NCBI GenBank assembly: GCA_021296255.1
Contig: JAGWAU010000005.1
Coordinates: 96,192 to 160,191, forward strand
From: Alphaproteobacteria bacterium
GTDB lineage: Bacteria; Pseudomonadota; Alphaproteobacteria; UBA2966
DNA length: 64,000 nt
Direction of reading: 5' to 3'
The position numbers and the translations under genes are program-made. How positions within the stretch are numbered: the first letter of the stretch is position 1; each line of letters starts with the position of its first letter. The notes beneath the pieces were generated by a model, which searched no databases, was not told the DNA's origin, and saw only the letters and a program-made list of their open reading frames with translations. This document shows, piece by piece, positions 44,966 to 48,474 of this stretch.

Positions 44966-45745
44966 ATGAGACTCCAGGGAAAAGTTGCGATCATCACGGG
45001 TGCCAGCAAGGGGATCGGCCGGGGCTGTGCCAAACGGTTCGCCGCCGAGGGCGCGGCGGTGGTGATCGCGGATGTCATCGACGATCAAGGAACCGCTGTC
45101 GCCGCGGAAATCGAGTCGGATGGCGGCAGAGCCCTGTACAAACGCACGGACATCGGGGATCCGCAGCAGGTGACTGCCTTAGTACAAGCCGCCGTCGACA
45201 CCTACGGTGGGCTCGACGTTTCCCTGAATTGCGCCGGCGTCATCCCAATCGACGGTTCGGACGTGCTTGAAACGGAGGAGTCCGAGTGGGACCGGGTCGT
45301 CGGCATCAACCTCAAAGGTGCGTTCTTCGTGTGTCAGGCGGCGGCTCGGGAAATGGTAAAGCGGGGAGCCGGCAGTATCATCAATATCGCATCAGTGACG
45401 GCCGTCATGGCAATCGGCAATCAAGCGGCCTACGTCGCCTCGAAGGCGGGTGTCAACGGTCTCACCAAATCCATGGCCATCGGCTTGGCTCATCGGGGGG
45501 TGCGGGTCAACGCCATCGGACCCGGATCGATCGAAACCGACATGGCGGCGGTGGTCCTCTCCGATGAAGAGTCCTTTGCCCGGGTGATGTCGCGAACGCC
45601 GCTGCACCGCATGGGTCAACCTGAGGATATTGCGGGCACGGCGCTGTTTCTGGCGAGCGACGATTCGAGCTACATCACGGGTCAGACCATCTATGTGGAG
45701 GGAGGACGGCTGGCCCTCAACCACGTCATGCCATCCAAAGCGTAA
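44966..45745 (+). CDS. SDR-family oxidoreductase 3 of 3
   Basis: A 259-residue short-chain dehydrogenase: TGASKGIGRGCAKRF, DVID after strand 2 (NAD), LNCAGVIP in place of NNAG, IINIASVTAVM and AYVASKAGVNG. The end GGRLALNHVMPSKA matches SDR 1, so the two are probably a duplication and may act on related alcohols or stereoisomers. It is 42 bases before the Rieske oxygenase gene. Confidence 0.92.
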   Translation: MRLQGKVAIITGASKGIGRGCAKRFAAEGAAVVIADVIDDQGTAVAAEIESDGGRALYKRTDIGDPQQVTALVQAAVDTYGGLDVSLNCAGVIPIDGSDVLETEESEWDRVVGINLKGAFFVCQAAAREMVKRGAGSIINIASVTAVMAIGNQAAYVASKAGVNGLTKSMAIGLAHRGVRVNAIGPGSIETDMAAVVLSDEESFARVMSRTPLHRMGQPEDIAGTALFLASDDSSYITGQTIYVEGGRLALNHVMPSKA

Positions 45746-45787: not shown

Positions 45788-47137
45788 ATGACCGAAGCCG
45801 CATCCATTCGGACGCCCTACGGCGCCTACTTCATGGGCGACGTTCCGGCTCATGACTCGGAGCTCACGGAAACCGGACCGGGAACACCCATGGGCGAGCT
45901 CATGCGTAAGTTCTGGCAACCGGTCTGCCTTTCTCGGGAGTTGAACGACCTGCCCAAGGCGATTCGCGTCATGGGAGAGGATCTCGTGGCATTTCGCGAC
46001 CGAACGGGTCGCATCGGACTTCTCCATCGGCACTGCAGCCATCGGGGCACGTCGCTGGAATATGGCATCGTGTCGAAGCGGGGCATTCGTTGCTGTTATC
46101 ACGGCTGGCTCTTCGATACTGACGGCACGATTCTCGAGACTCCTGGCGAGCCTTCCGACTCGCGCCTCAAGGACTCGTTTCGTCATGGCGCCTATCCGGC
46201 ACGCGAGCACGACGGCCTCGTCTTTGCCTATCTGGGTCCACCCGAAGACCTGCCGCCGTTCCCCATATACGACTGTTACGTCGAGCCTGCAGGCAACCGG
46301 CTGGTACCGTACTCAATTTGGCATCCCTGCAACTGGTTGCAGGTCCATGACAATGTCATGGATCCGGTTCACGCGGCCTTCTTGCATACTCGGATGAGCA
46401 ACGTTCAGCTCACCGAGTCTTATGGAGCCGTCCCCGTGCTCGACTTTGCGGATGTGCCGAACGGCATGGTGTACATCGGCAGCCGGCGGATCGGAAATCT
46501 AGTGTGGATCAAGGGCAATCACACGATGCTTCCCAACTTCGGGCAAACGACGGCGCTTTGGGAAACGGCGGAGAAGGTGAAGTACTTCACGGGCGTGAGC
46601 CTCAGCAAATGGATCGTGCCGGTGGACGATACCCACTGCTGGATGTTCGGTTTCCGACATTTCAACGGTGAAGTCGATCCACAGGGATTGGGCCGCGAAG
46701 ACCAGTGCGGCGTCGACACGGTCGATTTTTTCGGCCAGACGGGTCATCGAAGCCACGAGGCAATGCAACGCGAGCCCGGAGACTGGGAAGCACAGGTATC
46801 GCAGCGCCCCATTGCCATTCATGCGCTCGAACATCTCGGTACGACCGATCGGGGTGTCGCGACGCTCCGCCGTATGCTACGCCGGTCCGTCCGAGGGGAA
46901 TACGACCCGCGTACGGAGCTGACGCGTCAGTGCGAGTCTCGCAAGCCCATCCACACGCATTGCTACGACACGGTTCTCGGAATACCCCCACGGAGCAACG
47001 GCGACGACCGCGATTTCTTGCGCGAACTCGGGCAGCAGGTCGTTGGCGCCGTGATGGACGCCGATGCCTACGACGGGGAGGAGCGCCGTGAATACCTTCG
47101 GCGGCGCATGCGGGAGCTGGAAACGATCCACCGGTAG
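45788..47137 (+). CDS. Rieske non-haem iron oxygenase, aromatic-ring-hydroxylating alpha-subunit type (copy 2)
   Basis: A 449-residue oxygenase, paralogue of 12330-13721. Rieske ligands: Cys83 and His85 (HCSHRGTS), Cys102 and His105 (CCYHGW). Iron site: Asp192, His195 and His200 (MDPVHAAFLH). Shared features with copy 1 include TGPGTPMGELMRKFWQPVC and EPGDWEAQVSQRP with LEHLGTTDRGVATLRR. It ends the acyl-CoA synthetase/SDR operon. It probably hydroxylates or demethylates a substrate whose alcohol is then handled by the SDRs; this order is inference. No reductase gene is present. Confidence 0.92.
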   Translation: MTEAASIRTPYGAYFMGDVPAHDSELTETGPGTPMGELMRKFWQPVCLSRELNDLPKAIRVMGEDLVAFRDRTGRIGLLHRHCSHRGTSLEYGIVSKRGIRCCYHGWLFDTDGTILETPGEPSDSRLKDSFRHGAYPAREHDGLVFAYLGPPEDLPPFPIYDCYVEPAGNRLVPYSIWHPCNWLQVHDNVMDPVHAAFLHTRMSNVQLTESYGAVPVLDFADVPNGMVYIGSRRIGNLVWIKGNHTMLPNFGQTTALWETAEKVKYFTGVSLSKWIVPVDDTHCWMFGFRHFNGEVDPQGLGREDQCGVDTVDFFGQTGHRSHEAMQREPGDWEAQVSQRPIAIHALEHLGTTDRGVATLRRMLRRSVRGEYDPRTELTRQCESRKPIHTHCYDTVLGIPPRSNGDDRDFLRELGQQVVGAVMDADAYDGEERREYLRRRMRELETIHR

Positions 47138-47228
47138 CCGATCACGCCTCACTGCGGTTTCGCAGAGGGGAACACCCTGACGGGTCGAGCACGCGGCGCG
47201 CCCGAGCTCATTGGGGCCGCACCCCATG

Positions 47229-47245
47229 TTCCAGTCAAACTGGAA
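47229..47245. repeat. Palindromic repeat, copy A
   Basis: TTCCAGT-CAA-ACTGGAA is a perfect seven-pair hairpin 92 bases after the Rieske gene, followed by ACCGCTCTAA. It is related to the hairpin at 51024-51042, which is also followed by CGCTC. The G-to-A changes in the stem and loop are matched on the other arm. It may end the oxygenase operon transcript. Confidence 0.5.
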
Positions 47246-47255
47246 ACCGCTCTAA

Positions 47256-47378
47256 CAGGTTGCTGAAAAACTCGGCCGAGAGTCCGCCTCGCGAAACAAA
47301 CGAATCAACGGATGGGCGTTCGCGAAAACGAAACAAAACTGCCGGGATGATCGCTCCGAATCGTTTTTCAGCAGCCTG
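47256..47378. mobile_element. 123-bp MITE with 15-bp inverted ends and CTAA target duplication
   Basis: The left end CAGGTTGCTGAAAAA (47256-47270) and the right end TTTTTCAGCAGCCTG (47364-47378) are inverted repeats with one mismatch. The element is flanked on both sides by CTAA (47252-47255 and 47379-47382), a 4-base target-site duplication. It contains no open frame and has a short palindrome CTCGGCCGAG just inside the left end. Such ends are typical of DDE-type insertion sequences; the parent element is not in the window. The right-hand duplication contains the stop codon of the neighbouring trcR-like gene. Confidence 0.8.
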
Positions 47379-48248
47379 CTAAGTCGCGGGCTCTGCCTCC
47401 TCGGGAGGAGATCCATCACCACGCCGCAGCGGAGCCGATGACTCCGAATCCGACGGTTCCGAGGTCCCGAACACCGCAGACGTTATCGGTTCAGGCTCGG
47501 AGGGCGCCGGTTCCGGTGCGGCACCGAAAACGCTCTCCACGCTATGAACCGACTGCTCAGCGGGTGATTCCGGTGCCGCCCCCTCTGGGTCCGGCACGAT
47601 TTTCACGGGGATCGCCGGACCTTCCAAAGGCGCTGCAGCGGGAGATTTGACGGCGGCCGTCGTCGGTCCCGCCGCCTCGCCCTCCATGCGCGCGTGTTCC
47701 CGCGTTTCTCGGCGCTCACGCGACCGCAGCCTCGCGTGAGCCTTGGTCACCGCTTCATCAAGCTCAACTTGCGAGCACATTCCCAGGGACACCGGGTCGA
47801 TCGGCTTGAGGTTTGCCATATTCCAGTGGGTGCGCTCACGCACCGAATTGATGGTTGGCTTGGTGGTACCGACAAGCCGGCAAATCTGAGCATCGGACAA
47901 CTCAGAATGATAACGGAGCAACCACATGATGGCGTTGGGACGGTCCTGGCGCTTGGTGACCGGCGTGTACTTGGGGCCGCTCGTCCGCGCCTTTGGCCGG
48001 GGAATATCGGATGTCGCCATATTCAGCCGTGCGCTCGGGTCGGCCACGCACCGTTCGATCTCTTCACGCGTCAATTCGCCGTCCGGAACCGGGTCGCGGC
48101 CTTGGATGCCGATCGCCACCTCGCCGTCCGCGATGCCCTTCACTTCAAGCGGATGCAGACCGCAAAACTCGGCAATCTGGTCAAACGTCAGTGATGTGTT
48201 GTCGATCAGCCAAACAGCGGTCGCCTTGGGCATCAACGGCAGCGGCAT
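47379..48248 (-). CDS. trcR: TrcR/DUF1013-family cell-cycle transcriptional regulator
   Basis: A 289-residue protein. The DUF1013 core (about 1-170) starts MPLPLMPKATAVWLIDNTSL followed by TFDQIAEFCGLHPLEVKGIA and later NAIMWLLRYHSELSDAQICR, LVGTTKPTINSVRERTHWN; the latter is a helix-turn-helix-like part. NCBI names this family the TrcR cell-cycle regulator of alphaproteobacteria; that link is from memory. The C-terminal 110 residues are Pro/Ala/Glu-rich, probably disordered. ATG 48248 follows AGGAG. The TAG stop lies in the duplicated target of the MITE, so the insertion occurred right at the gene end without cutting it. Confidence 0.85.
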   Translation of the reverse strand: MPLPLMPKATAVWLIDNTSLTFDQIAEFCGLHPLEVKGIADGEVAIGIQGRDPVPDGELTREEIERCVADPSARLNMATSDIPRPKARTSGPKYTPVTKRQDRPNAIMWLLRYHSELSDAQICRLVGTTKPTINSVRERTHWNMANLKPIDPVSLGMCSQVELDEAVTKAHARLRSRERRETREHARMEGEAAGPTTAAVKSPAAAPLEGPAIPVKIVPDPEGAAPESPAEQSVHSVESVFGAAPEPAPSEPEPITSAVFGTSEPSDSESSAPLRRGDGSPPEEAEPAT

Positions 48249-48474
48249 GAAAGGGCTCCTCTTGCGGTTGGCCGCAGTGAACTTCCGGCACCATGTCCAT
48301 TTCGGGCCTCCCGCACAAGCGAATTCGTCCATTTGCGCAGATGTGCCCCGGGTGCCGGCCCCCGATCATATGGACCGACGCCGGCGGCCTTGCAAGGGCC
48401 GTTGAGCCATTGTCCGACGATCACGTACAGTAGTACACCGCCTCGAGAGGAACGTCGCCGAGCGGGGAGGAGCC

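Follow-up and report, generated by a model that had tools for sequence, protein, structure and literature searches.

A 123-bp MITE of IS5 type at the stop codon of trcR, and the placement of related insertions at stop codons

In the genome of an alphaproteobacterium (assembly GCA_021296255.1), a trcR-type gene terminates in the target-site duplication of a 123-bp element. This element is a MITE of IS5 type and, taken by itself, an ordinary, routine insertion. We consider it very likely (probability about 0.9) that it is non-autonomous and was inserted in trans by an IS5_4-type DDE transposase, at a YTAR sequence that was the trcR stop codon. This reading builds on the ends of the element and its duplication, a congener whose trcR stops at the same place without the element, related IS, and the enrichment of such insertions at stop codons. 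That pattern, and not the single element, is the interesting part.

Structure of the element and the trcR stop codon

Read directly in the sequence, positions 47252-47382 of the window (the whole stretch of 64,000 nucleotides that was analyzed) consist of CTAA, the 123-bp element (47256-47378) and a second CTAA, with the two target-site duplications at 47252-47255 and 47379-47382; none of these three features has a strand. The terminal inverted repeats, as delimited by repeat comparison, are 15 bp each, the left one at 47256-47270 (plus strand) and the right one at 47364-47378 (minus strand). They read CAGGTTGCTGAAAAA and, reversed, CAGGCTGCTGAAAAA, and pair at 14 of 15 positions, while a repeat finder, counting duplication bases as well, gave arms of 19 nt that are 89% complementary. 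The initial annotation had described a 123-bp element with 15-bp inverted ends between CTAA duplications, and direct reading bears this out, with the one mismatch. In the ORF list of the window, nothing of at least 60 aa overlaps the element, and lowering the limit to 20 aa adds three (33, 40 and 56 aa). Based on the ends, the duplications and the ORF list, the element is a non-coding MITE of IS5 type; its earlier identification as a MITE is further supported by IS with matching ends, described below.

The trcR-type gene (47379-48332, minus strand, 317 aa; Pfam PF06242 TrcR, E 6e-63) terminates in the right duplication, which reads TTAG on the minus strand. Direct reading, the ORF and a congener agree that its TAG, the complement of CTA at 47379-47381, is the trcR stop codon, as had been proposed. 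Because the gene-side copy of the 4-bp duplication retains the stop, the TrcR protein is unchanged, and the earlier claim that the insertion left it untouched likewise stands. Across the element from trcR lies a convergent gene of Rieske oxygenase type (45788-47137, plus strand; PF00355, E 2.7e-17). In the window, this gene sits between an SDR gene (44966-45745) and trcR; in the two congeners G001 and G002, trcR is instead faced directly by a gene that looks SDR-like by eye.

Among the loci of six relatives, the end of trcR was readable in these two congeners. In G002, whose trcR shows 76% identity in the matched part, the gene ends in ACTTAG at the same place, with a single TTAG and no element, which is the outcome that the initial annotation had anticipated for an empty site; in G001 it ends in TGA, and the element is likewise absent. 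As trcR of G002 ends at the same place without the element, the stop codon was most likely there before the insertion. Past trcR, both congeners have a different gene (the SDR-like one), so that the far flank cannot be aligned.

Copies of the element and related IS

The genome assembly (4.25 Mb in 136 contigs, 97% complete) contains one full-length copy. The right 51 bp of the element (47328-47378, no strand), located by similarity search, recur at 100% identity in two further places, on contigs C60 and C41. The C41 copy is truncated by the contig start, and no second end was found for the C60 copy, which looks like a solo end. By its ORFs, this solo end (locus L042, 2454-2527), which is at a stop codon, also lies between convergent genes; another end, at C60:49404, is by eye a remnant of an IS of the C68 type described below. 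The left half of the MITE had no match longer than 23 bases elsewhere in its own genome and none longer than 22 bases in the other end-bearing loci compared, and no parent element with this left half was found there. In a search of 96 genomes, the full element was present in its own genome only: three genomes matched at E ≤0.001, own genome included, and the other two matches cover just 27 and 21 bases.

The ends themselves are more widespread. The exact pattern YTARCAGGYTGCTGAAAAA occurs five times in the own genome and its backwards control not at all, while the ends searched without YTAR and with up to two mismatches hit 23 places versus 10 for the control and are thus not specific. Among 61 genomes, the exact end-plus-YTAR pattern was found in five and the backwards control in none. 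In the own genome, C68 carries a 2.68-kb element with such ends, CTAG on both sides and part of a DUF772 transposase. This element (L044, 1252-3930) is of IS5 type and holds a piece of a transposase gene that Pfam assigns to the IS110-type family, in other words a nested IS pair. G015, a genome of the same class, has an intact IS of roughly 1.5 kb whose ends match exactly and are flanked on either side by CTAG. Its transposase, 386 aa long, matches Pfam DDE_Tnp_1 and scores 276 bits against NF033581 (IS5_4; cut-off 140) and 199 bits against the IS1182 model, under its cut-off of 270. Over 15 bp, the right end of the MITE is identical to both ends of the G015 IS and to one end of the C68 IS, and its left end differs from the ends of these IS by one base.

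With the G015 transposase as query, the own genome yielded three pieces, all within the C68 element around the IS110-type insert, and the IS5_4 model of NCBIfam gave two matches, both in C68, of 136.6 and 74.4 bits (cut-off 140). Of the earlier proposal that an active transposase with the same ends resides elsewhere in the genome, the matching IS was thus found, at C68, whereas the active transposase was not, the one present being in three pieces. No intact matching transposase was found in the own assembly beyond this broken copy, although IS present in several copies can drop out of a draft in 136 contigs. A second intact transposase of IS5_4 type lies beside such an end in G029. An IS5_4 transposase alone does not predict the ends, since the congener G001 has such transposases above the cut-off yet none of the exact ends. 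Related MITEs occur as well: three copies of 149 bp, with ends of this kind and CTAG duplications, were found in G058, and G004 has one of 306 bp. Of the G058 copies (L079, L082 and L085), one follows the stop of a DctM gene, and for the remaining two no stop was called. Two pairs of such ends, separated by about 7 kb and each MITE-sized by position, occur on a contig that is listed as viral (L230).

Taken together, we propose that the element probably originated from an IS with CAGG(C/T)TGCTGAAAAA ends by internal deletion, and that an IS5_4-type DDE transposase would act on it in trans. Its target would have been a YTAR that already served as the trcR stop codon, and the 4-bp duplication would have kept a stop on the gene side, leaving TrcR as before.

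Insertions at stop codons

Two other insertions in the own genome also start at stop codons: the one on C60 at the TAG of a galactarate/altronate dehydratase-type gene, and the one on C68 at the TAG of a polyketide cyclase-type gene. In G001, where no element is present, the counterpart of the C60 gene (94% identical) shares the final residues and the TAG, in the context ATAG, which is not YTAR. Without the element, the C68 gene ends in ATAG at about the same place in G002, and in TGA in G001. All three readable insertions of the own genome are therefore at a stop, for which chance gives 0.003 over all YTAR sites and 0.03 over those that cut no gene, both being after-the-fact figures. In G004 and G058, DctM genes terminate in the CTAG duplication of MITEs that share these ends. 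Apart from the two duplications, the window has 95 YTAR sites, 13 at stops and 54 within called genes, at a density of 0.96 per kb inside called genes versus 3.7 outside. We reason that insertions at stops are common because YTAR holds TAA or TAG, is scarcer in genes, and is duplicated without harm to the protein.

For a wider count, we used at least 118 public loci with these ends from a one-genome-per-species scan, a non-random sample to which some genomes contribute several loci. Genes were called crudely, longest ORF first, and alike for insertions and background; the caller placed C68 inside a gene, although inspection shows an insertion at a stop codon. Ten flanks shorter than 600 bases were left out of the flank count, and nine elements with a flank under 300 bases were left out of the count per element. 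Among the matches listed, 31 of 127 flanks end at the stop of an ORF of at least 300 bp, compared with 95 of 2413 background YTAR flanks (Fisher 7e-15), while 20 of 127 are within genes, compared with 1143 of 2413; an ORF limit of 180 bp gives 33 of 127 flanks at stops versus 120 of 2413. Complete elements behave similarly: among the matches listed, 16 of 36 have a stop at one of their two flanks (background, 98 of 1194 sites), eight are in a gene (773 of 1194), and 32 are at most 400 bp long. These pairs of ends were allowed at most four mismatches in total, and one pair is only 43 bp. Thirty of the 31 ORFs at stops were scanned against Pfam, and among the matches listed 23 had a hit, including FtsW/RodA, ribosomal S6, Lon and PBP transpeptidase.

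Alternative explanations

The excess at stops could mean that the transposase actively seeks out stop codons or the ends of genes as an evolved safe harbor, over and above YTAR and selection, which we regard as unlikely. This would fit the count restricted to flanks that leave genes intact: with strata for duplication and GC, 31 were at stops where 15.1 were expected, a Mantel-Haenszel odds ratio of 3.3 (z 5.0) among the matches listed, or 2.6 (z 4.0) with the 180-bp limit. It would also fit the duplication-weighted ratio of observed to expected insertions, which among the matches listed is 4.8 at stops (31 vs 6.5), compared with about 2.4 at 1-100 bp downstream (23 vs 9.7). The resulting excess of stops over the near-downstream bins together is nominally about twofold among the matches listed. 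Against such a preference, the first 20 bp upstream of genes are enriched even more, at 6.8 (6 vs 0.9), and 21-50 bp downstream reach 3.6 among the matches listed, so that proximity to genes explains much of the signal. The remaining bins, again among the matches listed, are 2.5 (1-20 bp), 1.6 (51-100 bp), 0.75 (101-200 bp) and 0.5 (beyond) downstream, and 1.4 (21-50 bp), 1.8 (51-100 bp), 1.5 (101-200 bp) and 0.6 (beyond) upstream, with 0.34 inside genes. A wider target preference does exist, with C at position -6 in 69 of 137 cases versus 654 of 2413 among the matches listed (p 2.6e-8, an optimistic value, as flanks of one element are non-independent), but this is a short sequence bias and no reader of stop codons. 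Natural copies have, in addition, already been filtered by selection. Because the bins near genes are enriched too, most of the excess at stops is what tolerance near genes would give, and we infer that such tolerance accounts for most of the stop bias.

Alternatively, the element at trcR might be kept as a two-way 3' end, be it a hairpin, a terminator or an RNase target, shared by the convergent trcR and Rieske genes between which it lies. With its duplications, it folds better than 200 of 200 shuffles on both strands (z -4.07 and -3.76); however, the long hairpin of both strands is imposed by the inverted ends, no terminator-like or promoter-like (sigma-70-like) consensus was found in 47100-47500, and both congeners readable at trcR do without the element. 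We therefore consider such a role improbable. That the sequence arose as a palindrome by chance or is an old repeat between genes, and no transposon at all, would agree with the single full-length copy, but is extremely improbable given the YTAR duplication, the empty site of the congener, the fact that the ends are found again in IS and MITEs, and the absence of matches for the backwards control with YTAR. Insertion in trans of an IS5-type MITE at a YTAR that was also the trcR stop thus remains our preferred explanation.

Discussion

Insertions of this kind leave the protein untouched, but they may add a structured 3' end to the transcript; a change at the 3' end of the trcR mRNA is what the initial annotation had considered possible. 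More speculatively, widespread MITEs and IS of IS5_4 type may use YTAR as a built-in safe harbor, their preference having been shaped towards stop sites; we hold this idea tentatively and think it rather doubtful. If the idea is true, landing on the last codon would come without protein cost, since the duplicated target doubles as a stop codon, and the insertions seen here at FtsW/RodA-, ribosomal S6-, Lon- and PBP transpeptidase-type genes would be cases in point. Some of the genes with insertions at their stops belong to types that are usually essential. The wider count leads to a simple explanation, open to test, for the persistence of such elements, and the insertions at stops form a set of natural 3'-end changes to study.

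Comparison with known systems

MITEAba12 of Acinetobacter is, like the element described here, a MITE (about 113 bp) that is thought to be mobilized by a resident IS, but according to the available part of the source it has 9-bp duplications and ends of ISAba12 type (PMC6382973). Another such element is MITEPsy1 of Pseudomonas syringae, which in the accessible text measures 100 bp, has ends akin to those of the IS5-family ISPsy2 that contain CTGAAAAA, as here, and duplicates CTAG or YTAA; it differs in its outer end bases, in having several copies, and in having been captured in an entrapment plasmid (PMC3189936). The same portion of that paper mentions stop codons solely for broken transposase genes (PMC3189936). 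In the accessible parts of the open-licence literature, we found no report of a stop-codon insertion pattern for IS5-type elements. For IS5 itself, the available excerpts describe a 4-bp PyTAPu duplication in E. coli, mostly CTAG (PMC5493358), a YTAR target for the family (PMC10359306), and an intergenic bias (PMC11677980). The element shares with the IS5 family the 4-bp YTAR duplication and, through the matching IS, a transposase above the NCBIfam IS5_4 cut-off; it differs in lacking a transposase, and its family placement is made via the NCBIfam transposase model of that IS. The safe harbor of Tn7 lies downstream of glmS. At attTn7, Tn7 inserts, as here, just beyond the end of a gene, as stated in the accessible part of the source (PMC2918618). 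The difference is that Tn7 relies on a dedicated target protein and a single site, whereas here a 4-bp target is present at many stop codons.
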